Of a stretch of 64,000 nucleotides of DNA, positions 43,037-63,255 are shown piece by piece. The notes beneath the pieces are model-generated. The model was not told the origin of the DNA, made no database searches, and saw only the letters and a program-made list of their open reading frames with translations. Source of the DNA: Cladophialophora immunda (lineage: Eukaryota; Ascomycota; Eurotiomycetes; Chaetothyriales; Herpotrichiellaceae); the NCBI RefSeq assembly GCF_000835495.1, contig NW_015622544.1, positions 4,926,855-4,990,854 on the forward strand, in the 5' to 3' direction. Positions within the stretch are counted from its first letter, which is position 1, and each line of letters opens with the position of its first letter. The translations under genes and the position numbers were made by a program.

Positions 43037-43242
43037 CGCATGCAGGCAGGTATGACCGGAGTTGGAGTGTCGTCAAGCGCACGCCAACAGCACGAGGCTA
43101 TCAGTCTAAAGGATAAGGCTCTCTTAATAGATTTGGCCTAATACTTATTTCACGTAATGGCAAACGCCGGGAAGCTATAAGAATCTCTCCCCTACAGAAT
43201 CGCCTAGGGACAGCTTCTCTTCGCTTCCTAAGCGTTGAGTCG

Positions 43243-44285: not shown

Positions 44286-46551
44286 ATGGAAGACTCAACA
44301 GTCAGGCGACCGCGCTCTCGGCGCATCCGGCCGTGTGACTTTTGCCGGGCGAGAAAGGTTGCCTGTCGTATCACAAATAGTCCGCCATGCGACTTTTGCG
44401 TTCTGAAGCAGAGGCCATGCACGTTCAACGACGCTCCAGGCCCAAGGCAGCGAAGACAATTGGCCGCTGAGGCCCAGTTCTCGACCGAAAACGCTGGATA
44501 CATGCGTAACGGATATCATCAAAGCGAGTCCACCCATGGCGCGTTCAGTAACAATGCCACGTTCGACTTCGAGAACCTGGATTTCGACTTGATGGAAGTT
44601 CTAGAACTCGAAAGTCTGCCCAACAACCTGCCCGACAACTCTGATGCAATGGATGCTAGCAACAGCCATGCAGATGAAAACGATCTTCCCTTTGAAACCG
44701 TATCACCTAGCGGACGGAGAAACGAGGAAGAGCCGATCGGAGCTCGGACTCGCAGAATCGAGTTGGCCAGCGAGAAAACAGCTCTTGACCATGATCCGCC
44801 TCCTTCTGTGGTCAGTAGACAGCTTGCGCGATTCGTTGGACCAACGGGAGACCTCGATCTCTATCTTCTTGCGTATCGACAATACGACCAACGAGACCAA
44901 TCCGAGTCACAGCACACCAATGTCATCTACCAACGGATGAAGCCAGATCGAAACCTCCCGGAACCCAACACTGGAGAATTGCCATTGCCTCCACCAGTTT
45001 TTACGCTGCATAAGGATCCCTACTCATCGAGACTCGCACGCATTGTTGAGGACAGCCCAGTCGAGCGCTTCAGAACAGAACTTAAAACCCTCATCAGTGA
45101 CAATCTCGTATCTGACCTTGTACGACTCTGGTTTCGCTTCGTCTACCCTTATTTTCCTATCCTGACTCGACAGCAAATCTTCACCCAAGAAAAGCTGCAA
45201 CCCTCTGTGTCACCTTCGTTGCTGGCGGCCCTGTCTGCTACGGCAATTCCCTTTAGCATTTATGATGACAAGCTATGCGTGGAAGGTTCCCGTTTACCCT
45301 CTTCTACTGACCTGCTCAAGATCTCTCTGCGAGCATTGGCAGCAGAAGTCCAGTCTCCGAGACTGGAAACGGTCCAGACTCTCCTGTTACTATTACAACG
45401 CCACCCTACAGGAGATCCTTTGGCCGAAGAGCCTCTAAACTGGAATCTCTGCGCACAAATGACATCCACGGCTCAAACCATTGGATTGAATCATGACCCA
45501 ATGTCCTGGACCTCGCTACCTTTGTGGGAGAGAAGGCTCCGTAAGCTCATCTGGTGGGCTGTCTGGGTATGTGAAAAATGGACGGCTTTCGGCCAAGGCA
45601 TGCCCAGTCACCTGCATGACCGCGACTGTACTTGTCAGCCATTGACCGAGGCCGATCTGGCCGACCTAGGAACGGATGCCGCGACTACACCCAATTATTT
45701 TCTACACTTTGTTCAGCTGACGACCATTCTCGACCGACTTATGAATTCCTTCTTTACCGCTCAGGCAACTTTGAGGTTGGCAAACGACGTGCAGGGAGCG
45801 ATCGACGCAGCAAAGGTAATAAGAGCGCAGCTCAAGGAGTGGCACGATGCGTTGCCCGCAGCGCTCCAGACGCATGCTCAGAGCGACAAACGTGATCCTG
45901 CCACGGTCCCACGTCAGGACCTCGATGGGCAGAGCTCCCTACGTCTGGCCTACGTCGTTGCCCAGCTCGCAGTGTTCCGAGCTCTCCTTAGACCAGTTTC
46001 AATGGTTGCAATTCACCGAGGAAGCGGTCAAGGCCTTCCAGATAAGCCAGTCCTGGAGCCGGACGCTGCCCGTGCAATTGTGAGAGGAGCAATCACATGC
46101 TTGGAAGAATTGGTGGAGTTCGTCGAGGGCCTGACCACAATCCAGTGGGATGCGTTTTGGCACGGTTGTAAGAGTTTGCCCGCGCCACACCTGTTCCCTC
46201 GGGTACTGACACGTCTGCGCAGGGTCGCGACACAACTTCTCCATCGCTTCGACGCTCCTCATGCATTTACTTCTCATCACTGCTCAGTCACACACCTCGC
46301 CGATCGAACCGCATGAGCAGTGGCCTAGCCCGCAAGATCACCAACCTCGACTGGATCCAGTCCATGCTGAATCAACTAGCCAAATGAATCTGCAAACCGA
46401 ACATGAAGAGCTTCGGAAGCTCACCCAGAGATGGAGATGGGCGTTGAGACTCGCAGCACAGGGAGCGGGCGGACGGAAGGGGTTGATGACTCTCAGTCTA
46501 CTACGCATCGACGCACTATTCATAGAATGGCAGGATTCAAACATTCTATAG
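44286..46551 (+). CDS. Zn2Cys6 transcription factor with fungal-specific domain, 736 aa
   Basis: Likely pathway regulator of the neighbouring catabolic genes. Exons 44286-46167 and 46223-46551 join at a Trp codon to give FWHGWSRHNFSIAS, a typical fungal_trans ending. The binuclear zinc cluster is right at the N-terminus: Cys17, 20, 27, 35, 38 and 45 in the pattern C-x2-C-x6-C-x7-C-x2-C-x6-C, flanked by basic residues (RRPRSRRIRP). The middle-homology domain runs from about residue 280 (VRLWFRFVYPYFPIL) to about 640, with LNHDP and RRLRKLIWWAVWVCEKW as landmarks. The gene opens the cluster and its 3' end lies 65 bases from the convergent carbamoylase gene. Such factors bind CGG/CCG pairs; see the palindromes at 47944-48033. 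Confidence 0.93.
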
Positions 46552-46616
46552 ACGAAGCCGGTTTTGCATTACTTGGAAGCAGTCCATGCGTATATTGTCA
46601 ATTCCACCGATTCTGG

Positions 46617-47744
46617 TCAGCCAAGCACTTTCTTCGCCGGTAGCAGTTCCGGCTCTACCACGCCGGTTTGCTCGGCCAGGCGATCATAGTGATCTATACA
46701 TCGATGTCTATCGAAGTCAAACGTCTTTTCCTTTCCCCGGCGGCATTCGGCGAGATCGATGGTCGTCGCCACTAGTTCGTCACCTTTAGTTTTGGCTTCC
46801 GCAATGATTTTGCCGTTGGGGCCCACGATCATCGTCCCAGAAATGAGATCGTGACCGTCTTCCCGTCCGCACTTGGCCACGTTGACGCTGAAACACGAGT
46901 TGAGATAGCTGTTGGCCTGGCATGACAGCGCGTGATGGAAAAGTACATCCGACTCGGCAGACTCGCGGCTCTGATTCGGGTCGGAGCCCAACAGCTGCGG
47001 CGCAAACGCCGTGGTGTTGTAGCCACAGAACATCAACTCCACCCCCTGGAGGCCGTAACATCTCCATGCTTCCGGCCAGCGGCGGTCGTTGCAGATGATC
47101 ATGCCCAGAATCGGATCTCCCTTGCCCGCTGCGGTGTCCTGCTTAGCGACCAGATCTCCTACCTTCAAGGTATTGCCAACAAGACCTGGTCCCCGGAAAG
47201 CCCGGAATCCCAAGTTCCCACGACGGAAGTATCGCTTCTCGAGCTGCTGCGTGGCACCAGGCTCGAGAAATGGTTCTGTCACACCCGGAAGGTGCACCTT
47301 TCGGTATTTCGCAAGCACTCGCTGCTCCCGCGCCGAATAGTATGCAGACGAATTGTAGTCTACATGGCCACCTCCTGCAGTCGGTGACCTCTCCGCGTAT
47401 CCCACATATATATCGATGCCGAGGTTCTTGGCATGGTCGAACAAAGGCTTGACATTGGGAGACTGCTCAATGCCTCCCGCTGCAGGATCCTCGAATTCGA
47501 AGTATCCCGCCAGCTCCTCTTCATCGGAGATGAAGTGCCGCGGGAAGAAGGTGGTAAAAGCGAGTTCAGGGAAAACGACAATCTGGGTTTGGTCCTGGGC
47601 AGCAGCATCGAGAAGCGCGCACATTCGTTTGATGACGCTTTCGCGCGAATCGGCAAGTTGGATTGGACCCATCTGGGCCGCAGCGACTCTGACGAGTCGA
47701 GGAGCCCTTTGCGGGCTATTGCGCCCATCTGGAAGAAGCGGCAT
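46617..47744 (-). CDS. nitrilase-superfamily N-carbamoyl-D-amino-acid amidohydrolase-like enzyme, 375 aa
   Basis: Predicted to hydrolyse the carbamoyl group of an N-carbamoyl amino acid to free amino acid, CO2 and ammonia. Single exon. The catalytic triad is Glu60 (VVFPELAFTTFFPR), Lys149 (KYRKVHLPG) and Cys218 (ICNDRRWPEAWR). These blocks, with LEKRYFRRGNLGF and GYNT, are nearly those I remember from the Agrobacterium D-carbamoylase and closer to it than to beta-ureidopropionase. It is about 70 residues longer than the 304-residue bacterial enzyme, owing to a 15-residue N-terminal extension, short insertions and a longer C-terminus. No signal or membrane segment. It faces the amidohydrolase gene across a 460-base divergent promoter. 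Substrate chirality is inferred from similarity and from the D-amino-acid oxidase nearby. Confidence 0.9.
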   Translation of the reverse strand: MPLLPDGRNSPQRAPRLVRVAAAQMGPIQLADSRESVIKRMCALLDAAAQDQTQIVVFPELAFTTFFPRHFISDEEELAGYFEFEDPAAGGIEQSPNVKPLFDHAKNLGIDIYVGYAERSPTAGGGHVDYNSSAYYSAREQRVLAKYRKVHLPGVTEPFLEPGATQQLEKRYFRRGNLGFRAFRGPGLVGNTLKVGDLVAKQDTAAGKGDPILGMIICNDRRWPEAWRCYGLQGVELMFCGYNTTAFAPQLLGSDPNQSRESAESDVLFHHALSCQANSYLNSCFSVNVAKCGREDGHDLISGTMIVGPNGKIIAEAKTKGDELVATTIDLAECRRGKEKTFDFDRHRCIDHYDRLAEQTGVVEPELLPAKKVLG

Positions 47745-47943
47745 TGGATGTTGAAAAAGGGGAGCGCCTCAAGACAGATCTGTAACAATACTGAAATCAA
47801 ATCGGAATGGTTTATATCGAGGAGATCATGTTCGATCAGACCGATCCCCGAAAGCAAATACCACTCAAATATTGTGCAGCCACTGCCATTGAGATTCGAA
47901 GCGATTGGGACGCACGACCAACGCCGAAGGTTGCAAGACGCAA

Positions 47944-47961
47944 GCTCGCCGTACGGCGAGC
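47944..47961. promoter_or_regulatory. 18-base perfect palindrome with CCG-TA-CGG core
   Basis: GCTCGCCGTACGGCGAGC equals its own reverse complement. The core CCG-N2-CGG is an everted pair of the triplets that Zn2Cys6 dimers recognise. Binding by the regulator at 44286-46551 is inference. Confidence 0.5.
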
Positions 47962-48025
47962 GGCCGATTAACCATTACTACATCTAGTAGGGTGTTATCT
48001 TAGCATGCGGCGCGTTTATCGTGCG

Positions 48026-48033
48026 CCGTACGG
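48026..48033. promoter_or_regulatory. second CCGTACGG element
   Basis: Same 8-base core as the 18-base palindrome, 77 bases away, set in GCGCCGTACGGGCG. Possible second binding site for the cluster regulator. Confidence 0.4.
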
Positions 48034-48204
48034 GCGGACGACGACGCGAACATCGCCAGCAATTTAGGGCCTCCGGTGTTCAAGTCCGCGTCCTGCCACT
48101 TTCTTGGCCGTGCTCCTCGTTCGAAATGCGTATAACTTAAATGTATGTTAAGCCGGGCATATCAGCTTCTGGCAACGCACGTGAGGGTGTGAGAGAAGCG
48201 AACT

Positions 48205-49696
48205 ATGGACACACTGTACGTCCATGCAACCATCATCACCATTGATGCCGACAGACGTGTATTTCGAGATGGCGCGATCCTCGTATCCGGGAGCCGGCTT
48301 GCCGCCATCGACACCACTGCTACCCTCGATGCGGCGACACACCCAGCGGTTCCGCGGGTGGATCTGGAGCAGAAAATCGTTATACCAGGCCTGATCAACA
48401 GCCACATTCACTTGATCCAGTCGTTGATGAGAGGCCTGGGCGAGGACTTAAACCTTCATGAATGGGCGTCCTGTACCATTTGGCCGTTGGAAGTCAACTA
48501 CGTAGGGGACGATGGCTACGTGGCTGCGAAGCTAGCGATGGCGGAGATGATTAAGAGTGGTACTACCTGCTTCCTCGAACCAATGCTGCCTGCCTCGGCC
48601 GGCTTTTCAGGGATTGTAAGGGCAGTTGATGAGACCGGCATCCGAGGCTGCCTGGTATGTAGGACTTTCGCCCATCGTGTACGGAGATAGCTGCTAATTG
48701 AGACGCTCGGGAAAGGGAAAACTTGTCAAAGGCCCTAAATCTAATATCTCGGCCGGTATCTCTGACGCTCGAGACGAGCAGTCACACTTGATGACTATCG
48801 ACGCAGCTATCGAAGCACACAAAAGCTTCCACGGTGCCTGTGACGGCCGATTACACGTCTGGATGGCCACCGAAACGCCCCGTGGTCAAGATGAGGCAGG
48901 ATTCGCTGCAATCGGAAAGGCCTGCCTTGACCACGACATCCATTTAACGGTGCATTGCTCAGAGGCTCCTCGAGATTTTGAAATGTTGAGCGAGGCGTAC
49001 GGTACTACGCCCGGACAATTCTGTCAACGGATACACGCGACCGGCCCTCATGTGGTTCTCGGCCATATGACTCATGTGGATGCTCAGGTTGACCTTGAGA
49101 TCCTCCGCATCACCGGCACTTCAGTGGCGCATAACCCTACTAGCAACGCAAAACTCGCCGACGGAATTTGCCCTGTGCCTCAGATGCTAGACGCAGGTAT
49201 CAATGTCTGTCTAGGCAGCGACGGGGCCCCTTGTAACAACAGTCACGATCTCTTTCGCGATATGCATCTAGCCGGCATTATCCACAAGGCTACGACAAAT
49301 AACGCCAACGTTCTCCCCGCGGAACAGATCCTCGAAATGGCAACTATAAATGCGGCAAAAGCTTTAGGAGTGGATAAAGAGATAGGAAGCTTAGAGGTTG
49401 GCAAGAAGGCTGACTTCGTCGTGGTCGACCCTAGCGGCCTCCATGCCGCGCCATACGATCCGGCCCAAGTCGATACAATGGGGGGCGTTCATCCGTCAAC
49501 AGTGGTGGTGCATTCCTGCTCAGGGCGCGATGTAACGATGGTCGTGATCAACGGCGTCGTCGTCGTCGAGGATGGACGGTTTACCAGGTTGGACGAGGAG
49601 CAGGTCAAGTCTGCGGCACGGAATGCGATCGCCGAGATTCGCACGCGTTCACAGGTGAAGGCCCAACCACTGAAGCGCAATTGGCACTATGTATAA
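48205..49696 (+). CDS. ATZ/TRZ-type metal-dependent amidohydrolase, 476 aa
   Basis: Predicted deaminase or hydrolase of a ring C-N bond (relatives act on triazines, 8-oxoguanine, guanine and similar rings). Exons 48205-48654 and 48716-49696; the 61-base intron ends in AAAG and the join reads RGCLGKLVKGPKSN. Metal-binding residues are visible: His67 and His69 in NSHIHL, His in LTVHCSEAP, His in LGHMTHVD, and Asp in LGSDGAPCNN. The C-terminal part returns to the beta-sandwich (GSLEVGKKADFVVVD). No targeting signal. In this cluster it could convert an amino- or imino-substituted ring into a hydantoin or pyrimidinedione for the hydantoinase next to it; that is a guess. Substrate is undefined. Confidence 0.88.
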
Positions 49697-50122
49697 AGAA
49701 ACCATTCCCAGCTTCATAGTCCGAGCTTCCTACCCTTGACCAAGATTCTTGGTCGCTACAAGTGTTTCAAGCCGAGGATGCGTCTTGCACAGAGAACATT
49801 GGCACTGTGTGAAATTGTCTAGGAATTCTCGTGGGACACGAGACGGGAGCTAGAACCACGCTCGCCGGGCTCTGAGCCTCAAGCAAGCAGAGTCCATGAA
49901 GGCGCCGTTCTCCGCGCGACGGCGAACTCTACGCCGGGCAGATGACAACCCACCATGGCCAATTGACAAGAGGCTACTAGATCGTGGGGAGTGAGTAAGT
50001 AGGTTTGTTTGGCAACGATGGGAAATCCTGCCGCCACGAGCTCGCGAACCTTTCATAGAAGACGCTCTCCTTTGATCGGTCTATGTGCAGGGTGTAAAAA
50101 TTGGTGCAGCAGACTCGCAACC
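49697..50122. other. intergenic promoter region of the hydantoinase gene
   Basis: About 430 bases between two genes on the same strand. No CCGTACGG element here; scattered CGG and CCG triplets only. Confidence 0.5.
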
Positions 50123-51720
50123 ATGGAGTTTGATATGATCATTCACAATGGGCTGATTGTAAGTATTGCTCTGCGTATCTCACCCGGTGCAGATGAAGCC
50201 TGCATGCTTATTCATCTCTCGGGTAGGTCTCAGACACCACCGTGCTGCCGCTGGGCAACGAGATCGGGGTGAAAAATGGCAAAATCTCCTGTATAGGAAT
50301 GTCTTTGCCGTCTGGGCCGAAGACCGAAAGAGTCGATGCCGAAGGTGCATATATCACCCCCGGGGGCGTAGACGCGCATGTCCATCTTGCGCAAACAAAT
50401 GCTCCTACGGGAGACACCTGGGAAACTGGATCTCGAAGCGCCATTGCTGGTGGTACAACCACAATCCTGGCTTTCGCGTCTCAGAAGAGAACAGACACCT
50501 CATTAATACCGGTCTTGGACGACTATTACCAGAAGGCTCGAGGCCAGAGCTATGCCGACTACGGATTTCACTTCATCCTTACAAACCCTACACGCGACAT
50601 CCTGCAAAAGGAATTTCCGATAATGGCAAACGAAAAAGGCGTTACCAGTGTTAAGCTGTATATGACGTACGAACCGATGAAGCTCACGGATCGCGACCTC
50701 CTGGACATCATGATATCCTGCCGCGCCCTGGGCCTGACGACCATGATTCACGCCGAAAATTCCGACATGATTGCGCTCATCATTGAAGGACTAGAGAGGA
50801 ACGGCAATACCGATCCTTTTTACCATGCCATTGCGCGACCCAGGATTGCGGAGGATGAAGCGTCCTATCGAGCCATCTCGTTGGCGGAATTGGTTGGCGC
50901 ACCTATTCTTATTGTGCATATGTCGTCCAAAGTTGCAGTGGAGCATGTACGACACGCACAGGCGCGGCTTCTGCCCATCCACGCTGAGACATGTCCACAT
51001 TACCTATTCCTCTTGTCGGAAAATCTCAAAAGTAAGCCATCTGACCACTTCTGCGGGGCGATGCACGTCTGCTCACCACCGCTACGGCACCGCGTGGAGG
51101 ATCTCGAAGACCTGTGGCAGGGCATCGCCAATGGCACGTTCACTGTTTTCTCCTCCGACCACGCCCCTTCCAAGTACGATCATCCTGGCGGAAAGAAACT
51201 TGGCCTCGTGAACGGGATCCCGATGTTCTCCAAGATCCCCAATGGGCTGCCTGGAGTCGAGACCCGGCTGGCCCTGCTCTTCAGCGAGTCAGAAGCATGC
51301 TTACCACCCGCCGAGGCTCGACTGAGTCTTCCACGTTTTGTCCAGCTGACTTCAACGAACCCTGCCAAGATGTATGGCCTAGGAGGCTGCAAAGGTTCAA
51401 TACTGCCAGGCTATGATGCAGACTTTGTAATCTGGTACCCGACATCCAGTGATCAAGCACCAACGGAAATTACACAAAAAATGCTACACCACGGGGTGGA
51501 CTATACGCCTTTCGAAGGGGTCAAAATCCGGAACTGGCCAAGATACACCATTCTTCGTGGAAAGGTCGTCTGGAACAGAGATTCCGGCAAGGTCTTGGGA
51601 GAGATGACTTACGGCCAGTACCTCAAGCGCGGCAAGGGTGAGGTTCTAGTTGGGAAATCCTCGCTTACTCCTCGGGGAATGCTTGACAACGAACGCGATA
51701 TGTGGATGCCAAAACGGTGA
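50123..51720 (+). CDS. dihydropyrimidinase / D-hydantoinase, 509 aa
   Basis: Zn-dependent cyclic amidohydrolase opening a dihydropyrimidine or 5-substituted hydantoin ring to the N-carbamoyl amino acid. A 36-base first exon (50123-50158, MEFDMIIHNGLI) joins exon 50227-51720, restoring the usual N-terminal strand. The binuclear site is complete: His63-x-His65 in GGVDAHVH, Lys155 (carbamylated lysine) in VKLYMTY, His187 in HAEN, His243 in IVHMSS and Asp323 in SSDHAP. Length matches dihydropyrimidinases (about 500). The neighbouring carbamoylase would take its product directly. Allantoinase is less likely because the VKLYMTY and ETCPHYL segments are dihydropyrimidinase-like. Confidence 0.94.
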
Positions 51721-51866
51721 ATCGGTCTTGTGAGAGTTGATTAGAGACACAATCCTCAACTTTAGATTGAGACTATACAAAAATTTACGAAATTAGATCA
51801 ATTTCTGAATATGATTCGCTCTATGTTGAATTGGCTGATATACCAGGCTTGGTTTCGCGTCTTGTG
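51721..51866. other. short convergent spacer between hydantoinase and D-amino-acid oxidase genes
   Basis: 146 bases, AT-rich around 51750-51820, shared 3' ends. Confidence 0.6.
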
Positions 51867-53195
51867 TCAGAGTCGTTCTTCACCACCGAGCAAGTCCACC
51901 GCCGCCTTGGCCATTCCCCTACGTAGAGCGTCAGCGATCCTAAAGTATCGAGGCGACTTTACACTTGTATGTGACTTACCACGAGGCTTGATATCCGGCG
52001 CCGCCAGCACCGTAGTTGTGGATCACCACAACATTTTGCATCACCTCTCTCTCGATCCGGGCTCCTCCTTTCCGGCTTGCTGCGTGAGGTGACGATCATC
52101 AGCACCACTTTCCAACAGGGGTTTCAAACAGATCGCCACAATGGGAGATACTTACGCCGGAGCCCGACGGCGTGGTACAAAATCTTGAGATCTTCTGGAC
52201 TGCCTAATTCGGGAGCCAAATTGCAGCATCGTCTCTTGATGTCTTCTGCCAAATCGGCATCAATCTCTCCTGACCAGTCATTGTCCAAGCGGCAGCCTCC
52301 CAGCACGACACCATTGTGCATGCCCCGAGGGAAAACATAGGTCGTGTCATTGTCGACTCGTCGTGGAGATCGGAAATACATCCGCGTCAATGGGGTTGTT
52401 GGATTCTCGACGAGCATCACTTGTCCCTAAGTACAAATTCGCCGTCAGAACTGTAAAAAGTCCGGGTAGGGGGTGCGGCAAGGAAACGAAAAGGAACCGA
52501 CTTTGGTGGGATAAACATTCTTGTCCTCAACTCCCTTGAGCGAGTGCGAGCCCAATGCAGAGCAGTTGAAGTATGCCTTAGCGCCGGGAAAGCTGTGGAA
52601 GAGCTCTGCGATGTCCGAGTACATGGCCCGGTGGAACTCGATTCCCATTTTCCGGGCCTTATGCTCGAGCCTGTCCAACCGTTAATGTGTCAGCAAATGC
52701 AAGCTCCCGGCCAATTTTGCGGGATCCTTCGTACCAGAAAAGATACACCCTGGTATCGATGACAAAGGTATCCAAGTCGAACCCAAATTGGCTTCCTTCT
52801 GGCAATTTGTCTGACGAGAGAGGCCGCAGTCCTCCAACCAGTCTGTCGTACCAGATTTGGCCAGTTCCAACACTCAAGATGTCAGCGTGATCGGCGGGCT
52901 GGTCGAAAATCGCCCGAAGCTCCATGCTTTGGACACCTGTTGTCGCACTCTGTTCAGCCAGCAGGCGAAAGCTTTTGTACGTCACCGCATCCCATTCTTC
53001 CTGACGTCCATTGTCTGTGGCAACCGATAACCAATTAGCCCCCGCCCAGGGCGAAGCGTACTCTGCGACTCTGTCTCCCGGCAGGTGTTTCGCGACAACG
53101 ATGACGAGAGACTTTGGGTGGCGCTCGCGAAGCTCGAGCGCAGTTGACAGTCCTACCACGCCAGCACCTAGCAAAACGTACAGAGGTTGTTTCAT
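51867..53195 (-). CDS. D-amino-acid oxidase family flavoenzyme, 350 aa
   Basis: FAD oxidase expected to turn a D-amino acid into 2-oxo acid, ammonia and hydrogen peroxide. Five exons: 52735-53195, 52502-52670, 52156-52426, 51980-52079 and 51867-51918. Dinucleotide-binding motif G10-A-G-V-V-G15, then the family block EYASPWAGANW. YVFPRGMHNGVVLGG and VGLRPSRKGGARIE carry the substrate-binding arginine region, and HNYGAGGAGYQASWGMA is the C-terminal FAD signature. All exon phases agree. The intron after NVYPTK uses GTCGGT as donor. The protein ends GGEERL, not a standard peroxisomal SKL-type signal. Its place beside the hydantoinase and carbamoylase suggests it consumes the D-amino acid they make. 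Confidence 0.92.
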
Positions 53196-53598
53196 CGTGT
53201 GTGGTTTGGAAGAATCAAGAAAGACATCAGTTACCAAGGAAGGGATAGAGTAAGCTCTGACTTTGGGTTGTCGTACGCTTGTTTGCCTCAGGAGTTGACC
53301 TCAACGTCTGTCTAGTGGAGCCAACTTCTGCCAGCGCTGCCGGCGGCCAACTTGGCCGGCCCGCCGTCAGTCACCACTTTATCACCGCCGAATAAAGGCT
53401 CCCCGGGTAATTGAATCCGCCTCCAGTCTAGGACAGCATGCCTGATATCTGTCTGATCAAGGGTCAGTGGTCTGACATCTGGTGTATGTATGGGACATTT
53501 AGCTATTTCCAAATTACTATATAGCACTTTTAAAATCGCAGTGCACGATACCACGGCCAGAGACGTTATGGTACGGAACAATCAATCAGATTTCTAGG
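53196..53598. other. intergenic region between D-amino-acid oxidase and the first 2OG oxygenase
   Basis: About 400 bases. A GC-rich stretch with GCCGGCGGCC and GGCCGGCCC (about 53338-53362) offers several CGG/CCG triplets. It should be the promoter of the oxidase gene. No coding frame supported. Confidence 0.5.
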
Positions 53599-54549
53599 CT
53601 ATGCGGCAGCTGTGAAGGCTGCACCGTAGATGTTACTCATGATCTTGTGTCTGAGCTCTCCCACTGTGACACCAGGCTCAAGCTCCAGTCCATTTGAATA
53701 ATATTTTTCCACCTGCCTTCCGGGCACGATAGGTTGGAGCACGGTCTCTGGGTTAGCGCTCCCGAAGTAGGCCATGGTTTGGCGCTCTTGATCGTGTGGA
53801 AGGCCGTCAAACGTCACCCGATGAAGTGTGGCCTTGAGCTGAGCCCCAGACCAGAACGATAGTGCATCGCCGATGTTGACAAGAATGCAATTTTCGATGT
53901 GTGGTGCCTTAACCCACTCATCGCCAGCCGGCGACAGAACTTCCAGGCCAGCAGCGCGTTGGAATAGGAGTGTTACCGAGCCAGAGTCGGTATGTGGGGC
54001 CATTCGAGATCCGACGTCTTTGGCCGGAGTTGGTTCTGATCGGGCTGGGTACATGAGCATCCTGAGGCTATTGCCATCTCCGACATTCTCGCGGTGCGCG
54101 TTGGCAAAGAATTTGCGATCTGGTAATCCTAGAGAGAGTGCAAAGCATTCGAGCAACCGGATAATCAAGCCGTGGCACTGATGCTTGAAATCCTCGACCG
54201 CCTGTATGTGCTGGTGCCAGAACGGGGGTAGCATACTAAGGTTCTCATCGAGGGTCCCCGGTGTGCCACCGAACCACATGGACATTTTGTCGTCCTTTGC
54301 TCGATCCTGAAAGCTGCCGACATACCCAATTGACTTGTTGGTGATAGGGTAGCCATCTTTTTGGCTTTCAGGCAGGCAAAAGAAGTCTCTGGCTAAGGAG
54401 AACATGTTCTCGATGCTCGAGGCTGGAATGGAATGTCCCTTGATCAGGAGAAAGCCCCATTTCTTGCAGGCATCGGTGACCTCCTGTGCAATGCGCAGTT
54501 GGGATTCAGGATTGTCGATATCCGACACGTCAATGATAGGGAACGACAT
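53599..54549 (-). CDS. 2-oxoglutarate/Fe(II) dioxygenase, isopenicillin N synthase-like family, 316 aa
   Basis: Single-exon non-haem iron oxygenase. The N-terminal domain starts SFPIIDVSDIDNPESQ. The iron triad is H186-x-D188 in APHTDSGSVTLL and His243 in LHRVTF; the 2-oxoglutarate arginine is R256 in ERQT, where the usual R-x-S reads R-Q-T. I start at 54549, immediately before the domain, as is usual for the family; an in-frame ATG at 54666 would add 39 polar residues. Substrate unknown. Fungal relatives hydroxylate small heterocycles or amino acids, which would suit a ring-degrading cluster. The second family member at 58282-59604 is clearly distinct in sequence. Confidence 0.9.
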   Translation of the reverse strand: MSFPIIDVSDIDNPESQLRIAQEVTDACKKWGFLLIKGHSIPASSIENMFSLARDFFCLPESQKDGYPITNKSIGYVGSFQDRAKDDKMSMWFGGTPGTLDENLSMLPPFWHQHIQAVEDFKHQCHGLIIRLLECFALSLGLPDRKFFANAHRENVGDGNSLRMLMYPARSEPTPAKDVGSRMAPHTDSGSVTLLFQRAAGLEVLSPAGDEWVKAPHIENCILVNIGDALSFWSGAQLKATLHRVTFDGLPHDQERQTMAYFGSANPETVLQPIVPGRQVEKYYSNGLELEPGVTVGELRHKIMSNIYGAAFTAAA

Positions 54550-54998
54550 GCTTTTTCCTTCTGGTTGGTTCCGGACTAGTTCGTTGTGAAACAATTTGTT
54601 TTCTGATTTTCTCGTCGCTGTGCACTTGGAAGGTAATGTAGTTAGAGGCCCAAAGGTGGAGGGCATTTACAGATGAATGAAAGGCCTGTCGATGGACGGC
54701 ATTGGGTGGTTGGACGTAGATTATGCGCCCTTTGACCCCACCGCTATCGTAGGTGCCACGGCGTTATCCACCGCCGTCTCCAACATTGAACGTGCATGAG
54801 GAGTTACGCCACGCCCATAGTGAGACTAATTCCTTTGGGGGCACTGCATCGATGCGCTCAATCACTGGATTGCACAAGAGAGATGCAAGAACATCCAGTG
54901 GTTGATCAGAAATGGGGACACATGCAATTTCAAGAACTAGGCCATATGACTTGAGACTAGACTTTGTTTTCCACACCCTATCGGCTGCTCTGCATTCG
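54550..54998. other. intergenic region between the first 2OG oxygenase and the MFS transporter
   Basis: About 450 bases: oxygenase promoter and the 3' end of the MFS transcript. Contains the optional N-terminal extension of the oxygenase (54550-54666). Confidence 0.5.
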
Positions 54999-57040
54999 TT
55001 ACACACGATTGCGTTTTGGTTGGGTTTTTGCATAGGCAGCGTATCTTTTCGCACACATGATCCTCATTTTCTTGCCCCAAAATATCATGACGAAGGAGAG
55101 CAGCGAAAAGAACAGAGCCAGACAGCCCAAGGAGACAAATGTGTTGTACAACCCCAGGCTGTCAATCCACGGTCCTGTGGCAAAGACGAAGCCGGCTGCG
55201 ATTGCGTTCCGGACGAAAGTCACTCCGATCAAAGCATCGCCCAGAATCTGTGTCATCGGTCAAAATTGAGGATTTCAATAATTGAGAGGCGCAAATACCT
55301 GTTCGTAGGAGTCCATAAGGTAGGACAGGCTCAACGCCTGAATCGAAGCCTGGGAGAACCCGTACAGCCCTACACCAACACATGGGATAATCCAGTGGGC
55401 CTCCTGTGATACATCAACTGTGTGCCTGGTGTGGTAGTGCATCCATGGGTGACTTACGTGTGCTAAGCTGAATCCATAAAGGAAAATGCCGGCAGGACCT
55501 AGCAGAGCAGGAATGATGGTGGGATATAAGCGCATCTCTGGTTCATAGATGCCTCCGTTTCGCTTGGCCAATTTAATGATGGACCAATCACTCAGCGGTC
55601 CAGAGTAAAGAATGGAGATAAGGGCGCCAATGAAGGGCGGCAAGTTCAGAAGGCCAATTCCAATCGTACTGAAGTTGTATGGCGACTCTGAAAAATAGTC
55701 AGACTCGGTGACTGCTACAACAGATACCCAGGACAGAAACGCCCCGAATTGAAGAGCCACATAAAGGACTCCCGGTATGGTCAACATCAATAGTGGTTGA
55801 TAGAAATGGCGGGTAAAATCAGCAAAAGTCCCAGGAGTCTTCGTGACCAGAGCAAGGCGCTGTCGATACGACTTGAGAGGTATGGGAGCAGCGACAACAG
55901 GCTCCGTGGTCGATGCTGCAGCTGAAGTCTCTGCATTCTTGAGGTCTTCCAGAGGTCCTTCCTCCGGGTCTGCTTGTCGAGAAGTCGTTGGCGTTGGGCC
56001 CGATGTCACCACCCCAGCGAGTGTTATAACATACTTAGTCTCCTCATAGAAAAATACAAAAAGGAGAAAGTTCACCCCCAATAGGATGGCACACCACCAA
56101 TAGATCCATGGCCATCCTTGCGCAACAGCCGAGTAGCCGGCAACAACGGGGGCAAGATATACCTGATAAAGTCAGCTTGAAATGGTACACATAGGTGTTC
56201 GGCATCCTTTACCCCAATGTTCATACAGGCCAGATATGAAGCATTCATTCTGCCCCTCTGGTGCAGGAAAAAAAGATCATTAATCTATAAGTAGCTGTCA
56301 GCAAGCGGCTCCAGTCCAGCATCGCAACCGGACAGTACAGTACCGTCATTTGGACGATGGTATCAGCCACCGAGCCAGCGAGTCCATCCACGACTTGCAC
56401 AGCGACCATGTTTGGGTAGTCTCGCAGGACTGCCTGCCAAATGCCACAAATGAAAAGAACAAATGTCGTGACAAGGTAAACAGGTCGACGCCCATACTTG
56501 ATCGCAAAGGGCACGAAAAGTAGACAGCCAAAAGCCAATCCAACACAATTGGCGGCAAACGTGTTGTTCAGGTCAGAATAAGAGATGTGAAGGAGAGTGT
56601 TGTAGTCTTGAAACACTACGACCCCGATATCAAGCCTTGAAAGTGTTAAATCTATTGAGTAAGCTTGTGGACTGTGGGCCATACATTGCGAAGACCATGA
56701 GAACATAGAAGGATGCGATTGAAAAGTTGACAATTTTACGCTTCATGGTCCAATTCTGTTTCTGAATTAGAACAGTACAACTGGAAAGCGGGAATAGGTA
56801 GGAAAGATACCAACGGATCATTTGGGTCTGACGATGGCTGAGGGTACAGTATCAATTCTCGATCTGTCTTGCTATGCTTAAGTGCCGAAGAGGCTGCAGT
56901 TGGGAGGAATATCAGCACCAAACCCAACAAATTGGGTCGTAGTTCTTACCACTCTCTAGCATGACTGTCCCAGGAGCATGGTCCAGGAAATTGGTGCTCG
57001 CAACATCATTATGCTGGGTATCACAATCAACAGCAGCCAT
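54999..57040 (-). CDS. MFS transporter, DHA1-like, 555 aa
   Basis: Eight exons: 56950-57040, 56811-56893, 56685-56755, 56344-56635, 56213-56284, 55458-56162, 55299-55403 and 54999-55247; all phases close. The N-terminal cytoplasmic segment has the family layout PGTVMLES, then ELILYPQPSSDPNDPLNW just before TM1. Other signatures are KYGRRPVY in loop 2-3, TINDLFFLHQRGRMN after TM4 and WIYWWCAILLGVNFLLFVFF with YEETKY before the central loop. The long central loop has a Pro/Thr run. A basic tail ends QPKRNRV. In the cluster it may import the ring substrate or export an intermediate. Related fungal transporters include drug exporters, so direction is open. Confidence 0.9.
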
Positions 57041-58281
57041 CTTGTCTTCTCAATTTCAGGGGAAACTGTATTGAGAATCAAAAGCCTCCAAGCTTGATTG
57101 TCAAAGGCTTGGTCCAAATCCGCGGTTGAAGAGGTGTAAAGGTCTGCCAACGCGCGGCCAACGCAAGGACCGTATACCCCATGTTTCTGTTGAGAAGGGT
57201 TCCAGACCGGGCTACTTTAGGTAGGGCTAGCCTATCTCCCCCATCAAAGACGGGGCAGAATGCTTATCTCGGAAGCCATGATATTTGTACTAGGCTCACG
57301 GGCCGCGAAGACAACGGCGGCGGTGAGTGAGATTCGTGTCTTTCGATATTCGCATCCACGGATAAGAAGAAGATAGTTGTCTCGCTTCTAGATCCTGGGT
57401 CTGTGTTTAGCATGCCCGCTGTTCTTTGCCACTATGGGCACCTCTACCTGGTTTGTTCCGCATCCTTCACGCTACTTGCAAATATAGCTGCTTCAGATCA
57501 ATGTCTTCTAGGAGTATCAAGATCGGTTGTAGCGTTAGGCTAAAGGACAATCACACGATCGATCACGTCTCGCGCCCCTCCAAGACGGCCGAGTCGGTCT
57601 GAATGTATATAGAAGACATTCGTCCAAATTTTGGTAGATCGAAGCAGCCATATCTTTGCTTTGTGTCCACGTACACAGAGTAAGGACAGCATCCATCAAG
57701 GTTTTTTTGTCAAACGATAGTCTATTCAACGGAGATCTCCACGTCACAGAGTGACTACTCAATACCAGTCTCGAGACCTTCGCTCGCTGCCCTGCGCAGC
57801 GCTGCGGTATTCACCTCCCTTCGCAGTGCCTGGGTTTTCGTGGATGAGAGCGGTCTCGACTGAATATACGAACAAATCACTTCCATGTGTGGTACATATA
57901 TAAAGCTGGTAGAAACGAATGATATATATTACCGGTCTGTTTGATTCGTAGAACAGCGGCCCGCCGTATGGGGCTCGGCAAAGCTCCGGTTTTTAAACAT
58001 ATGGGGAATGATTGTAGTACTTTCATTGACACGTAGATCTGAGATATATTAGACATTGTATAAGGCTAAATTTGATGCTTTTGTCTGATTCGTGATAATA
58101 TTCCAGGCTACTTGTATTTGTGACCTGGGGTGAGGGAGTGTTTCACGGTGATTTTCACGGTGATTTTCACGGTGATTTTCACCACCGAATGTACGAGCGA
58201 CGATTCGAGAAGAATCAAGCCGACAAGTAGTGATGAGGATGAGCTGTATTGGTGACGTGACATCTTTCGATCCTCATTTGC
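57041..58281. other. intergenic region between MFS transporter and second 2OG oxygenase
   Basis: About 1.2 kb, relatively AT-rich from 57850 on. It holds the MFS promoter and a 12-base tandem repeat near the oxygenase 3' end. No coding frame supported. Confidence 0.5.
58141..58182. repeat. 12-base tandem repeat, three and a half copies
   Basis: The unit TTTCACGGTGAT is repeated three times exactly, followed by TTTCAC. It lies 100 bases downstream of the stop codon of the second 2OG oxygenase. Confidence 0.95.
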
Positions 58282-59604
58282 CTACATTCCAGGAACTAAT
58301 TCTCCGTCGATCTTCGTCATACCATAAGGCAGGGCAGCGGATGATTTGCCTTCAGCTGTCGGGTGTTCATGATGCGCGATTCGCATCCTGTTGTTGTAAT
58401 GCTCATAGCCTGTAATGGGATTCTTGTACAACGGATTTAATGGGGCTTCTTCTGTGATGAATTGCGGCCGAGTTGAGACCAGCTCGTCGTTGCTCAGTCC
58501 AAAGAAGAAGGGTAGCGAGTAGCGACCGACGGCATCTGTCCCATTGTTGCACACACGATGCACGGTACTGACAAAGGTGTCGTTCGTCAGTCGGGCGACC
58601 ATATCACCCAGGTTCACTACGAACGTCTGTGGTTCAAGCTCCGGATGGATCCATTCGCCGTTTGCATTGAGCACTTGGAGTGACCGCGCATTGTATGGCT
58701 TTTGGGCGATCATCGTCATCACTGGACGGGAATGTAAGCAAAGACACCCGCAACCACCGATGGTGACTTACGTTGAACATCGGTGTGAGCCCCCAAGCCG
58801 GTCTCCTCGTCCTCAGGAGTGGTTTGAGGGGGATAATAAAGGGCCCGAATGCCAGCAATCGGATAGGTGGTTTTGCGGTCGAAATATGTCGCTTCCTCGC
58901 CCATTGCCAGAGCAAGAATCTTTATTAACTTCCTCATCAAGGAGAGACAAACGTTGCGATATTTCTCCATGGCGGGTCGGAACTTGGGCGCATCTTCCTC
59001 ACTGGGCCATAAGTTCTTGCGGATGAGAAGCTCAGGCACACCATCGCCAATTCCCAGTTCGTCGGTCCAAGGATCGTATGCGGTTGTCATCGACTCCTTG
59101 AGATCTAAAAAGGTAAAAGGGATTAACCGAAGCTCGAGGACGTCAATCACCTTGAGACTCATCGCCTTAAGACTTACCACCTCTTTTTAGTCGGTCAACA
59201 TTGGTGTAGTAAGGTTCCTCATATCCCATAAAGCTCGGGCTTTTGCTCTGGTGCACAGCCATCTTCTTCTCCAGAGGCAGTCCAAAGAACTCCTCCACGG
59301 CCGCAAAGGCATCCTCAACGATTTTCCAGTCAATGCCATGATTCCTGATCACAAAGAACCCAACTCGCGTGCATGCGTCTTTGATGTCGGCCACCAGTTT
59401 CTCGAGAGCTCGTTGCTCGGGATCCGGCGATACCATAGCAGCCAGATCAATGATCGGGATTGTATCGAATTGCCCCCCCGAGCCATGTGCTGGGGCCAAA
59501 TCTCTCACGATGCCTTGAGACAGGTAGAGTTTGCCATTGACAACGCCGGCTCGGCCTTGCGGCTTGCGCTTGGAGGCCCTTTCGACGGTTGTTTGTGTAG
59601 ACAT
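58282..59604 (-). CDS. 2-oxoglutarate/Fe(II) dioxygenase, second copy type, 399 aa
   Basis: Exons 59178-59604, 58772-59104 and 58282-58721, with joins at RGDLKES and HTDVQLMTM. The DIOX_N domain begins at about residue 48 ([12 protein letters not shown]) and includes [10 protein letters not shown]. The iron triad is H249-x-D251 in GAHTDVQ and His308 in STVHRV, and the 2-oxoglutarate site is R320-x-S322 in RYSLPFF, all intact. About 45 extra N-terminal residues are basic and have no clear targeting signal. Closest in layout to plant/fungal oxidoreductases of the flavonoid/IPNS group; substrate unknown. It points away from the divergent permease gene across about 500 bases. Confidence 0.92.
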
Positions 59605-60103
59605 TGATGGCGGAGTGGCGGTCAGGCAAATCGAATCGTCTGGCCTGTCGGTAGGTCGCTATCACGTAGAGAAGTCACCTCGAGGGTCAATAGTCAGAGC
59701 AACATTAGTCTAGTCAACATTGTTATCTAAAAGTGAGACTCCAGTCCATCGCGTTATGCACACGCCTTACGATGATCAGGTGTCTCGCCGTTGGCAGATA
59801 AGGAAGGGAAGTGGAGACCGAAAACGCCGCTGATGTTCGCCTTTGCCGTCAGCGCCGTTTATCTTCGCCGTCCAAGAGGCGGGAAAGCCCACGAATAGCC
59901 TACGACACTATCTCCATGTCTCCACCCGCTACCCGAATCGGGCATCTTGATAAGAGGGGTCTGTTTATCTGTATATCAGATGTGAGTATCCTCGAGCCAT
60001 GGCCTAAAGATTTTACAGACCAATATTCCCTGTGGCGCGTCTTGTTGAGCGTTACCTAGTCGGTACAGACCATCACGGTTTCGACGACCCCTAAACCGCA
60101 GCG
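59605..60103. promoter_or_regulatory. divergent promoter between second 2OG oxygenase and APC permease
   Basis: About 500 bases between divergent starts. Repeated GCCG/CGCCG motifs at 59820-59870 (for example TCAGCGCCG and TTCGCCGTC) give many CCG triplets but no CCGTACGG palindrome. Confidence 0.5.
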
Positions 60104-61921
60104 ATGGAAAGCACAAGTCACACGGCGTCGAGGGAGGGTCCTGGTGTTCAGCACGGTCTGCGCAAGACTTTCGGAGTATGGCAGCTCTGTGCGATGGCTG
60201 TTGTGCTGCCTGGGTAGGATTGCTCCCTATCGAGTCGGCTTCGTGACTCGAGGCTAAGTTATTCGTCCAGGGCGTGGTGTTTTGCTGCAAGCTCCATGGT
60301 GATCGGTATCTACGGTGGTGGGCCGGCTGTTGAAATTTGGGGCACTCTAGCCGTTGGGGCCGCGCTGTCTGTGTTCTGTCTGAACCTGGCCGAATACGCT
60401 TCTGCATTCCCAAGTGCTGCAGGGGTGACTTATGCCGCGGCACGTCTTGGTGGACCGAAATATGGACGCATGATGGTGAGTCAAATCCCATCTTTGTTTG
60501 TCAGTGTCTGATCGATTAGTCCTACTATACTGGATCTTTCCTCTCGACTACGATCGCATTCATACCCCCGGTACTCATCTTAGTCCTCTCTGAGCTCACA
60601 TTTACTTGTGCATGCGTTTTTCACCCAGATTTTGTCCCCAAAAGGTGGCAAATCTGGCTCCTGTTTCAACTCTTCAACATAGTCTACTTGGTTGCCCTCA
60701 AGTATGGCTCTCGTTTCATTGGTGAACTGAATGGAGTTGGCAGTAAGTTTACACCCGGGCCCCAAAGCACTGAGCGAGAGACTTATTCATTGCGCCAGTT
60801 GTTGTCCTGACAACTGGCATAATCGTGACTATAGGAGTCATGGTAGGGATGTCAAAGGGAGACAGACCTTCAAACTCGTAAGTATTCGTCTCTGACCATG
60901 GCAGCGTTGTGGCTCACATTTGCCATAGCTTTTTGTGGATCAGCTTCGAAAACGGTAGCGGATACAGCTCCCCGGTCATGGGCGCCCTCTTGGGTCTACT
61001 TGGTCCTCTTTACGCCTATGGCCCCCCTCATTGGATGTTGAATCTGGCGGACGAAGTTCGAGACCCCAGAAGAAGTATTCCGATCGCCCTCCTAGTGCAG
61101 CAGATTGGCAACATCATCACGTAAGATCCTGATACAACGAGTGTGCGAGCCTAGCTGACTTGCGCAGATTATTTGCCTTCTATGTTGCGACCTACTACTG
61201 CATTAATGACTATGACAGCCTCCTGGATACCACGTTTCCCTCATTGGTAGGACAACTCTACCTCCAGGGCACGAAGTCATCAGTTGCTACTCTCTTTTTG
61301 CTGTTATTCGTGATTGCACCCTCCCTGTTCGGCACGTATGGCTACATTTCTGCCAACATCCGCCTTCTCTGGGGGTTCGCCTCAAAGGGTTCACTACCAT
61401 TTCAAAAGTTCTGGACCAAAATCGACAACGAGCACAACATTCCCATCAACAACCTATACTTCAGCATTGTCGTCAACTTTTTGATGAGCTTCATCTATCT
61501 GGGCTCAGATGTCGGCTTCAACATCATCATTGACTCTGCGAACTTCTTCTATAGCATGGGTTTCCTTCCCTTGCTTGCGGCCTCAATCTTGACCAAGCGA
61601 AAGTATCTGCATGCCGCGCCAAAGTCGTATTTCCGCATGTCGTATACTGTTGGAACGTGTTGCGAAGTGTTCAGTTTTCTGTTCAATTTAGGCTGCTGTG
61701 TTTGCGAAGCATTTCCAAGCTCGTACCCTGTCACTGTCGAGAATATGAACTACACAGTCGTGTTTGGTGCTGCTGGTATCCTATTCACAACACTCGGATG
61801 GTTACTGCATGGCAGAAAGCATTATTTGATAGAAGTTTTGGACAGCATCGAAGAGGAAGAAGCTGTTGAAGAGAAGGGAAAGATGGCCTGGAAGTCGCGT
61901 GAATTGGTAGTGGATCTATAG
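60104..61921 (+). CDS. APC-superfamily amino-acid/GABA/choline permease, 520 aa
   Basis: Proton-coupled importer in the plasma membrane. Six exons: 60104-60213, 60271-60475, 60520-60742, 60799-60877, 60929-61120 and 61168-61921; frames close throughout. The N-terminus is short (GLRKTFGVWQLCAMAVVLPG leading into TM1). TM2-3 carry GIYGGGPAVEIWG and LAEYASAFPSAAGVTYAAA, the amino-acid permease signature region. The sixth-helix block is YAYGPPHWMLNLADEVRDP with RRSIPIAL, as in Uga4/Hnm1-type carriers. About 12 membrane segments; the C-terminus is acidic (EEEEAVEEKGK). In the cluster it is the likely importer for an amino-acid-like or ureide substrate. No upstream ATG gave a better N-terminus. Confidence 0.92.
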
Positions 61922-62972
61922 ACGAATGCGGACAACATTGCAGTTTAGCGAGGTCAACAACCATTGCAATGACTAGAATCGTGATAGGTAACAGCACGAC
62001 TGCAAGGACAAACGTATTATGTAGAGACAGCTGCAATCTCAAGCTGGGTCCCTGAGCATAGTACCCCGGCCTTCTCTGATGAATGCGTGCGGTGTAGCTG
62101 AATGGCACAGGGTTTGAAATGCCCCCGAAGTCTTTTCTCGACTCTGATTCAAAAACGTACTGCCACAAGAGACGACATCTGGTAGTTGTGTTCGGCGAGT
62201 TCACGAGGACAGGATGCAGCAAGGAGCCGAGAGCAGAAACCCGTCACAGGGAGTCATAAGATGGGGTCTAGCCACTAATAAAGGGAACTGGTCTTAGGAT
62301 ACCGTGGATGGGGCAGACGAAGTACGGTTACTAGGGAGACAATAGCACAAATGATAAGAGGATGCGTCGTGAGCAGGTGGTTTTAAAGCGGCACTATTGG
62401 ACAGTGTTAAACCACTGCTTGGGCGGCCAAGGGGCGGATCGGACAAGTTTTCGAACGCGAGACTATACAGTCCGTTCTTGGTCACCTAGTCCGGGAGTTC
62501 TGACGTGGTGGGAAGACCGAGAAGGGAATTTATCTCATGTGCTTGGCTGGCCAGGCATTGCGACGATTGAAATAGGATGGGAGAAGAAAATCTGGATGGT
62601 GGGCAGTGTGGGAGGATGTCGAAGACAGAATCGATCCCTGTACATCGTAGGTACAGTTAAGTCTGTTTTCATCGAACCAATCAACACATAGGGTGCATAT
62701 CAAGACAGAGCAAGGGAGGGTAGACGTCCGGATTCACAAGTCAAGTTTTAGTGGAGAGTATAAGTCATTCGATCAGAATTCATGAACCGTGTATCGTAAA
62801 CATCTTGATATGAACTATTGCCTCAGATGATTACAATAACACACCTCCTCTGAGATCTCTGGAGATGGGCCTCCGTCGCGCGGAATTTCCAACCCGAGAT
62901 TCGATCCCCGAGTGGTCCGACCGTTAAGCTGCTGCTTCATATAGCTCACCCAGCGCTCGGGCGCTCTCCCCC
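61922..62972. other. intergenic region after the permease
   Basis: About 1 kb with short unsupported frames on both strands. I saw a tRNA-like fragment near 62890-62930 but no foldable full gene. Confidence 0.45.
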
Positions 62973-63255
62973 GTACTCTGCCGTGGCTCCCGCGATGCTC
63001 TCCGGTACTCAGCCAGGCCTCCTCGATACTCCGTCACGTGTCTGATTAAAGCGGCCTCGCTCCCTTTCCTAAACTAAAATGGTAATAGGTAAAATACAAT
63101 TTGGGGTAGTTAACTATATATATATATATACCCCGAACTATGCTTCATCCCTTACCGTTTTCGATAAGGGAGGCCGCTTTAATCGGGCAGGTGACGGAGC
63201 ATCGAGGAGCCCCGGCCGAGCATGGGAGAGCGTCGAGAGAGCTACGGTAGAGTAC
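62973..63255. mobile_element. imperfect inverted repeat, probable decayed foldback/MITE-like element
   Basis: The left arm (62973-63064) starts GTACTCTGCCGTGGCTC and ends near GATTAAAGCGGCCTC. The right arm (63168-63255) read in reverse complement starts GTACTCTACCGTAGCTC and ends GATTAAAGCGGCCTC. The arms, about 90 bases each, align over their whole length with scattered, mostly C/T and G/A, differences. The spacer is AT-rich and itself contains a smaller palindrome (63103-63134). No transposase frame lies inside. Beyond the right arm the GTACTCT..GTGGCTCCCGC motif occurs again, a subterminal-repeat pattern. Target-site duplication was not identified. Confidence 0.65.
63103..63134. repeat. 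AT-rich inner hairpin of the inverted-repeat element
   Basis: GGGGTA at the left pairs with TACCCC at the right around GTTAAC and a TA dinucleotide run. Confidence 0.7.

Follow-up and report, generated by a model that had tools for sequence, protein, structure and literature searches.

A candidate cyclic-ureide utilisation gene cluster with a hydantoinase and a D-carbamoylase in Cladophialophora immunda

We analysed a stretch of 64,000 nucleotides from Cladophialophora immunda (RefSeq assembly GCF_000835495.1, contig NW_015622544.1, positions 4,926,855 to 4,990,854 of the forward strand; hereafter, the window), in which nine neighbouring genes at positions 44286 to 61921 include a hydantoinase and a nitrilase-type N-carbamoyl-D-amino-acid amidohydrolase (D-carbamoylase). 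As listed in Table 1, they are accompanied by a second amidohydrolase, an oxidase of the D-amino-acid type, two 2-oxoglutarate (2OG)-Fe(II) oxygenases, two transporters and a Zn2Cys6 regulator. Gene modelling gave GT-AG introns in seven of the nine genes (the carbamoylase and oxygenase 1 are intronless) and no internal stops. The ends of the cluster, i.e., the start of the regulator and the end of the amino-acid permease, match those of the initial annotation, and the nine genes are intact at that place with the domain families named there. The carbamoylase and the amidohydrolase are each 99% identical to annotated C. immunda proteins (CLAIMM_01224 and CLAIMM_01225, respectively), and the hydantoinase is 95% identical to CLAIMM_01226, a 491-residue model.

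Table 1. Genes of the cluster and copies of the shared promoter element (positions in the window; domains from Pfam at E ≤ 0.001)
Feature	Position	Strand	Details
Zn2Cys6 regulator	44286..46551	+	exons 44286-46164, 46223-46551; 735 aa; Fungal_trans 5.7e-18
N-carbamoyl-D-amino-acid amidohydrolase (D-carbamoylase)	46617..47744	-	375 aa; CN_hydrolase
Promoter element	48016..48028	-	CGGCGCACGATAA; between carbamoylase and amidohydrolase
Amidohydrolase, MTA/SAH-deaminase - TrzA/AtzA - 8-oxoguanine-deaminase group	48205..49696	+	exons 48205-48654, 48716-49696; 476 aa; Amidohydro_1 1.5e-61
Dihydropyrimidinase / D-hydantoinase	50123..51720	+	exons 50123-50158, 50227-51720; 509 aa; Amidohydro_1
D-amino-acid oxidase / D-aspartate oxidase-type flavoenzyme	51867..53195	-	5 exons; 350 aa; DAO 1.2e-30
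Promoter element	53379..53390	-	CGGCGGTGATAA; upstream of oxidase
2OG-Fe(II) oxygenase 1	53599..54549	-	start 54549 or 54666 (316 or 355 aa); DIOX_N + 2OG-FeII_Oxy
Promoter element	54764..54776	-	CGGCGGTGGATAA; upstream of oxygenase 1
MFS transporter	54999..57040	-	8 exons; 555 aa; MFS_1 1e-30
2OG-Fe(II) oxygenase 2	58282..59604	-	3 exons; 399 aa; DIOX_N + 2OG-FeII_Oxy
Promoter element	59859..59870	-	CGGCGAAGATAA; between oxygenase 2 and amino-acid permease
APC-type amino-acid permease	60104..61921	+	6 exons; 513 aa; AA_permease_2 6.5e-31

The carbamoylase is a D-carbamoylase as judged by its sequence and its predicted fold. Twenty-two distinct solved sequences in the PDB match it, and D-carbamoylases occupy the first 11 places (E from 6.8e-67 to 1.6e-60). 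The next match is 3ivz, named as both nitrilase and beta-ureidopropionase (2.9e-8), and 8pt4, named as beta-ureidopropionase only, reaches 2.1e-4; an identity as beta-ureidopropionase was rejected on these values. The catalytic residues Glu60, Lys149 and Cys218 and the CNDRRW substrate block are intact, which agrees with the D-carbamoylase-like catalytic blocks claimed initially. An AlphaFold model based on 19 sequences has a mean pLDDT of 71.6, with low values at the C-terminus and over residues 152 to 179. In a comparison of this model with solved structures, the first 19 of the best 50 rows are D-carbamoylases (36-39% identity; TM-scores, normalised by query length, of 0.66-0.68), and the remaining 31 are other CN-hydrolases (19-24% identity).

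A carbamoylase tree of 56 rows was built from the window protein, 33 of 120 listed homologues, two further genes of the genome, proteins of 18 of 80 bacterial loci and two CN-hydrolase outgroups; its bacterial rows are 43-50% relatives rather than assayed enzymes, and no solved D-carbamoylase or beta-ureidopropionase is among its rows. In this tree, 54 rows (36 fungal and 18 bacterial) are separated from the two other CN-hydrolases of the genome with support of 100/99, both outgroup branches being very long, and the 36 fungal rows all lie on one side of a branch with support of 91/100. Most of the question of how the carbamoylase groups, which had been raised with the initial annotation, is thereby answered: it stands with the bacterial relatives and apart from the two other CN-hydrolases.

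The hydantoinase scores 407.2 bits against the NCBIfam model TIGR02033, above the curated cut-off of 393.25, and its binuclear metal site is complete (His63, His65, the carboxylatable Lys155, His187, His243 and Asp323), so that it can be assigned by sequence as a dihydropyrimidinase/D-hydantoinase with a full metal site, as first described. Its score against the subfamily model NF009941 is higher (526) but below the cut-off of that model (647). The nearest solved relative is 2fty (382.6 bits), which we take to be the dihydropyrimidinase of the yeast Lachancea kluyveri, and the best D-hydantoinase is 1nfg (309.7 bits). The 2fty enzyme has the same metal site, and dihydropyrimidinases of this type are known in uracil degradation, whereas the hydantoinase of the window is paired with a D-carbamoylase. 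Hydantoin-5-propionate amidohydrolase (ErtD, an ergothioneine enzyme) was considered as an identity and rejected, since the scores against NF058538 (159.8) and NF058539 (201.4) are both under the cut-offs (600 and 650, respectively).

The pairing of the two enzymes is, on the basis of sequence comparison, conserved in other fungi. Three protein searches, with the carbamoylase, the amidohydrolase and the hydantoinase, listed 120 proteins each, and linkage was compared by species and contig over all 53 organism-named carbamoylase rows, 50 amidohydrolase rows and 45 hydantoinase rows, a shared contig being inferred from equal contig size. Of the rows left out, P0250 has an incomplete organism name, and all others belong to species that the carbamoylase list does not contain. 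The carbamoylase and the hydantoinase are on the same contig in all 11 species common to both lists. In four of the 11, which have locus tags for both genes, the tags are one or two apart (carbamoylase/hydantoinase: C. immunda 01224/01226, Claussenomyces 003943/003942, P. chermesinum 009707/009705 and P. macrosclerotiorum 010329/010327); in the other seven, the link consists of the same contig only, and several of these contigs exceed one megabase. The carbamoylase and the amidohydrolase share a contig in 4 of the 14 species common to their lists (C. immunda 01224/01225; Talaromyces atroroseus 01330/01331, with UA08_01330 as the carbamoylase; Pestalotiopsis fici 03890/03891, with PFICI_03890 as the carbamoylase; and, by contig, Thozetella sp. 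PMI_491), and the amidohydrolase and the hydantoinase do so in two of nine. Further shared contigs outside the species comparison comprise one carbamoylase-amidohydrolase and two carbamoylase-hydantoinase cases. Of the synteny anticipated for the nine genes, conservation is therefore found between carbamoylase and hydantoinase throughout and between carbamoylase and amidohydrolase in part, in a comparison that covered these three enzymes.

The four linked amidohydrolases are at least 62% identical to that of the window; those of the other ten species are 49-60% identical and on a different contig from the carbamoylase, some perhaps in different assemblies. In a tree of 50 amidohydrolase rows (the window and 49 of the 120), for which three Chaetothyriales rows were chosen as the root, five linked rows fall inside one clade of 15 rows with support of 100, linkage being known for five of the 15. 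This clade mixes Eurotiales, Sordariomycetes and C. immunda, a patchy taxonomic composition that suggests sideways transfer. By sequence, the amidohydrolase belongs to the deaminase/chlorohydrolase group; its best PDB match is 4f0r (1.7e-55), and the metal ligands and catalytic glutamate that it shares with MTA/SAH deaminases, atrazine chlorohydrolase and 8-oxoguanine deaminase are intact (His67, His69, His230, Glu233, His267 and Asp319). It differs from these enzymes in that it exceeds no NCBIfam cut-off among the best 25 of 61 families matched; the best score is 334.9 bits for an MTA/SAH or deoxyadenosine deaminase equivalog with a cut-off of 522. It has no close paralogue in the genome, the next relative being 28% identical.

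The oxidase has a DAO domain, and its best PDB matches are D-amino acid oxidases (DAAOs), in line with the initial assignment. The ranking is headed by 7ct4 (226.5 bits, 4.3e-66) and 1c0i (150.5 bits), which carry the name D-amino acid oxidase and are presumably the Rasamsonia emersonii and Rhodotorula enzymes, respectively; 9vpf (124 bits, 6.1e-35) and 6rkf (101.4 bits, 4.6e-28) follow under the name D-aspartate oxidase (DASPO), and we take 6rkf to be the human enzyme. Overall, the oxidase is thus closer to DAAO than to DASPO. The GxGxxG motif, Tyr240 and Arg300 are intact, and with both types it has in common the flavin adenine dinucleotide (FAD) and the Tyr/Arg pair for the alpha-carboxylate. 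It differs from them in a lid that holds four arginines (225, 229, 232 and 233) and in Arg256, which aligns with Arg237 of 6rkf (the chain numbers are shifted by 9); the residue in that column is Tyr in both 7ct4 and 1c0i and Met in 9vpf. Oxidase relatives in the same genome have Tyr (L022, by eye 7ct4-like) or Lys (L021 and L024) at this column. Arg229 is aligned to human Arg216 with flanking gaps of three and four residues, so that the match depends on gap placement, and Met226 is kept in the column of Met213 of the Rhodotorula enzyme (RgDAAO). According to published accounts, Arg216 and Arg237 bind or attract D-Asp in D-aspartate oxidase (PMC8260693), R. emersonii DAAO accepts D-Glu, and an arginine at RgDAAO Met213 conferred D-Asp activity (PMC6697736). 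From the basic residues, acidic D-amino acids of the D-Glu/D-Asp type are plausible substrates; because Met is kept at the Met213 column and the Arg216 match hangs on gap placement, such a preference is only a hypothesis.

Both oxygenases keep the H..D..H triad plus the arginine. The best PDB relatives of oxygenase 1 are thymine dioxygenase (5e-24) and tropC (1.7e-23), and that of oxygenase 2 is a 2OG-dependent ethylene/succinate-forming enzyme (7.7e-37). For the amidohydrolase and the two oxygenases alike, domain calls and catalytic residues agree with the families proposed before. The six-cysteine pattern of the regulator (CX2CX6CX7CX2CX6C) is present at residues 17 to 45 together with the Fungal_trans domain, although Pfam gave no zinc-cluster call at E ≤ 0.001. 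The two annotated transporters are present; they are an MFS protein and an amino-acid permease, and thus not permeases of the NCS1 (nucleobase/hydantoin) type.

A candidate promoter element, CGGCG-N2/3-GATAA, occurs in four of the seven promoter regions of the cluster, ahead of six of the nine genes, and all four copies in the window lie in these promoters. The distance from element to start codon is 98 to 272 bases (98 or 215 for oxygenase 1, depending on its start). Fungal GATA-factor sites have GATAA as their core, and zinc-cluster sites have CGG. In the shuffled window 0.17 copies are expected, and none of 100 shuffles gave four. A scan of 5 + 5 spaced dyads with gaps of 0 to 11 returned CGGCG/GATAA (with its complement) as the sole dyad in four of the seven regions. 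The genome (42.2 Mb in 39 contigs) contains 142 copies versus 95 of a reversed-letter control, which is only a mild enrichment, and 122 versus 109 with the halves in opposite order; the paralogous hydantoinase loci whose DNA was fetched contain none. The promoters of the hydantoinase, the MFS transporter and the regulator lack the element even when one mismatch is allowed. Co-regulation, which the initial annotation had named as a test of the cluster, is thus likely from the promoter sequences for six genes and unsupported for these three.

The genome encodes six dihydropyrimidinase-type genes and one 29% relative; the five others are 54-60% identical to that of the window in their best segments. 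At one locus (C2:5321558-5326100; L026:977-3101, L025:7559-10000), the hydantoinase is divergent from a D-carbamoylase that is 48% identical to that of the window, an Asp/Glu/hydantoin racemase (8.7e-52) adjoins, and a paralogue of oxygenase 2 (segments of 37-46% identity) lies approximately 4 kb further. This second hydantoinase, D-carbamoylase and racemase set is more bacterial-looking. On contig C3, a hydantoinase adjoins an NCS1 permease (1.6e-87) with a racemase-family gene approximately 7.5 kb off, and an oxygenase relative of weak similarity (28%) lies near the hydantoinase locus at C3:1296498. On C8 (L031:2361-4544, L032:2623-4814), the hydantoinase is flanked by exons of an NCS1 permease and, 2.8 kb away on the other side, by the closest paralogue of the regulator (261.6 bits versus 153.2 for the next best among 53 matches listed); a PhyH-type oxygenase is located further along. 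Racemase-family matches are found at six places in the genome, of which two (on C2 and C3) are near hydantoinases. From the comparison of the five loci, the hydantoinase, D-carbamoylase, racemase, NCS1 permease and this type of regulator recur together, and the oxidase does not. A third D-carbamoylase (C3:1478571; L029:5342-8633 = C3:1476341-1479632) has an adjoining P450, a multicopper oxidase approximately 2 kb further and a hydantoinase approximately 34 kb away.

The bacterial D-hydantoinase/D-carbamoylase loci of the hydantoinase process have the same two enzyme families side by side. The cluster of the window differs from them in being eukaryotic and without a racemase, and it has in addition a D-amino-acid oxidase, a pair of 2OG oxygenases, an amidohydrolase that belongs to a different subgroup, and regulation of the fungal kind. 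In the DNA fetched for 80 bacterial carbamoylase loci, a hydantoinase-family relative was found in 27 (17 at 24-27% and 10 at 38-43% identity), a racemase relative in 30 and amidohydrolase-like relatives in 35 (22-29% identical; the neighbours revealed no substrate), and no oxidase match covering at least half was found in any of the 80 at E ≤ 1e-10. At Bradyrhizobium loci, among them L067, L075 and L080-L083, related D-carbamoylases recurrently stand beside a racemase relative (approximately 31%) and a distant amidohydrolase relative (23-25%). A literature search in one library found no described fungal hydantoinase cluster among the papers listed, and "hydantoin" is absent from the main text of the C. 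immunda genome paper (PMC5595782), which gives the sequenced strain as CBS110551.

We favour, by a modest degree of belief, the reading that the nine genes form a catabolic cluster with which the fungus scavenges nitrogen from a 5-substituted hydantoin or a similar cyclic ureide. The transporters would import the substrate or a precursor, which the amidohydrolase, perhaps with the 2OG oxygenases, may trim to a hydantoin, e.g., by replacing an amino or imino group with oxygen. Ring opening by the hydantoinase would yield an N-carbamoyl-D-amino acid, from which the D-carbamoylase would release the D-amino acid, CO2 and ammonia. The FAD oxidase would then convert the D-amino acid to the 2-oxo acid, with formation of ammonia and H2O2. 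Expression of the genes would be activated by the Zn2Cys6 regulator together with a nitrogen regulator of the GATA type. The enzyme families, the catalytic residues, the hydantoinase/D-carbamoylase pairing in fungi and the shared promoter element are read from sequence, and we infer the order of the reactions, their D-stereochemistry in the living fungus, the steps given to the amidohydrolase and the oxygenases, the binding of the regulator and the action of the oxidase on the carbamoylase product. A mode of action that resembles the bacterial hydantoinase pathway and ends in an oxidation is partly supported, and the sequence evidence does not place the cluster in any characterised fungal pathway. 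If this reading is correct, a conserved and apparently co-regulated fungal route ending in D-amino-acid oxidation would give a clear physiological purpose to D-hydantoinase and D-carbamoylase, two enzymes of industrial importance whose role in nature is, to our knowledge, poorly known, and would hint at an unrecognised nitrogen source for fungi. The fungal homologues would also provide a large set of eukaryotic candidate D-carbamoylases.

Several observations weigh against a nine-gene hydantoin pathway. No hydantoin racemase is among the nine genes by Pfam, the six PF01177 matches of the genome all lying outside the window, and the C-terminal tripeptide of each of the four enzymes differs from the consensus for the type 1 peroxisomal targeting signal (PTS1). 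A D-carbamoylase is found at one of the five other hydantoinase loci (C2:5321558), and the DNA fetched for all five has no match at E ≤ 1e-5 to the oxidase, amidohydrolase, MFS transporter or permease of the window. The nearest homologues of the hydantoinase outside C. immunda, among the matches listed, are mostly from Dothideomycetes (77% identity at best), and those of the carbamoylase and the amidohydrolase are in other taxa, so the genes may have different histories. The promoter element was first spotted by eye, which makes its statistics partly post hoc; in random sets drawn from other genomic DNA, genic and intergenic, four regions were reached in 1 of 150 with a low-complexity filter and non-overlapping draws, and, less favourably, in 5 of 60 without the filter, and the hydantoinase promoter is among those without a copy.

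These points bear on how far the module extends. A hydantoinase-carbamoylase(-amidohydrolase) unit with the oxidase, oxygenases and transporters as unrelated neighbours is possible but doubtful, and it gains strength at the expense of the longer pathway because the oxidase, like the transporters, is missing at the genome's other hydantoinase loci; linkage in other species, compared for the hydantoinase, the carbamoylase and the amidohydrolase, is demonstrated for these three genes. So small a unit is at odds with the promoter element shared by the carbamoylase and the amidohydrolase, by the oxidase, by oxygenase 1 and by oxygenase 2 and the permease, and with the 2OG oxygenase paralogue near the second hydantoinase-D-carbamoylase locus on C2. 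The D-hydantoin utilisation cluster of the initial annotation stands in its core, which is identified and linked in fungi, and is weaker at the oxidase. A more specific version of the hydantoin pathway, to which we give little credence, would have acidic-side-chain hydantoins (of the hydantoin-5-propionate or -acetate type, possibly from histidine, ergothioneine or orotate breakdown) as substrates; the amidohydrolase would make the hydantoin from an imino- or amino-imidazolone, the D-carbamoylase and the D-aspartate-oxidase-like enzyme would lead to 2-oxoglutarate or oxaloacetate, and the cluster would have spread sideways among distant Pezizomycotina.

The nearest solved relative of the hydantoinase, a dihydropyrimidinase, would also suit reductive pyrimidine catabolism, in which dihydrouracil or dihydrothymine is converted through a beta-ureido acid to a beta-amino acid. 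This route is decidedly improbable: the carbamoylase matches D-carbamoylases far better than proteins named beta-ureidopropionase, the D-amino-acid oxidase would have no role, and PRK08318, presumably the dihydropyrimidine dehydrogenase model, reaches at best 32.2 bits in the genome against a cut-off of 335, although this prokaryotic model was above its cut-off in 2 of 14 controls and a divergent enzyme could escape it. The creatinine-like variant offered in the initial annotation (deimination to N-methylhydantoin, then N-carbamoylsarcosine, sarcosine and oxidation) fits the order of steps and an amidohydrolase of the deaminase group. It is nevertheless the least credible of the alternatives and very unlikely, because the oxidase is of the DAAO/DASPO type, with the D-amino-acid-binding Tyr/Arg and with a basic side chain in the Arg237 column, and the carbamoylase is of the D-carbamoylase family; known N-carbamoylsarcosine amidohydrolases have another fold.

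Directly to the right of the cluster, positions 62966 to 63262 contain an imperfect inverted repeat of 96 nucleotides (82% complementary, with a 105-nucleotide loop). Its 57 genome matches, many of which are one place matched on both strands, are dispersed and resemble those of miniature inverted-repeat transposable elements. To the left, at 39087-43072, there are three minus-strand open frames without a Pfam match at E ≤ 0.001, one of which has, by eye, a trypsin-like stretch (ALTAAH).

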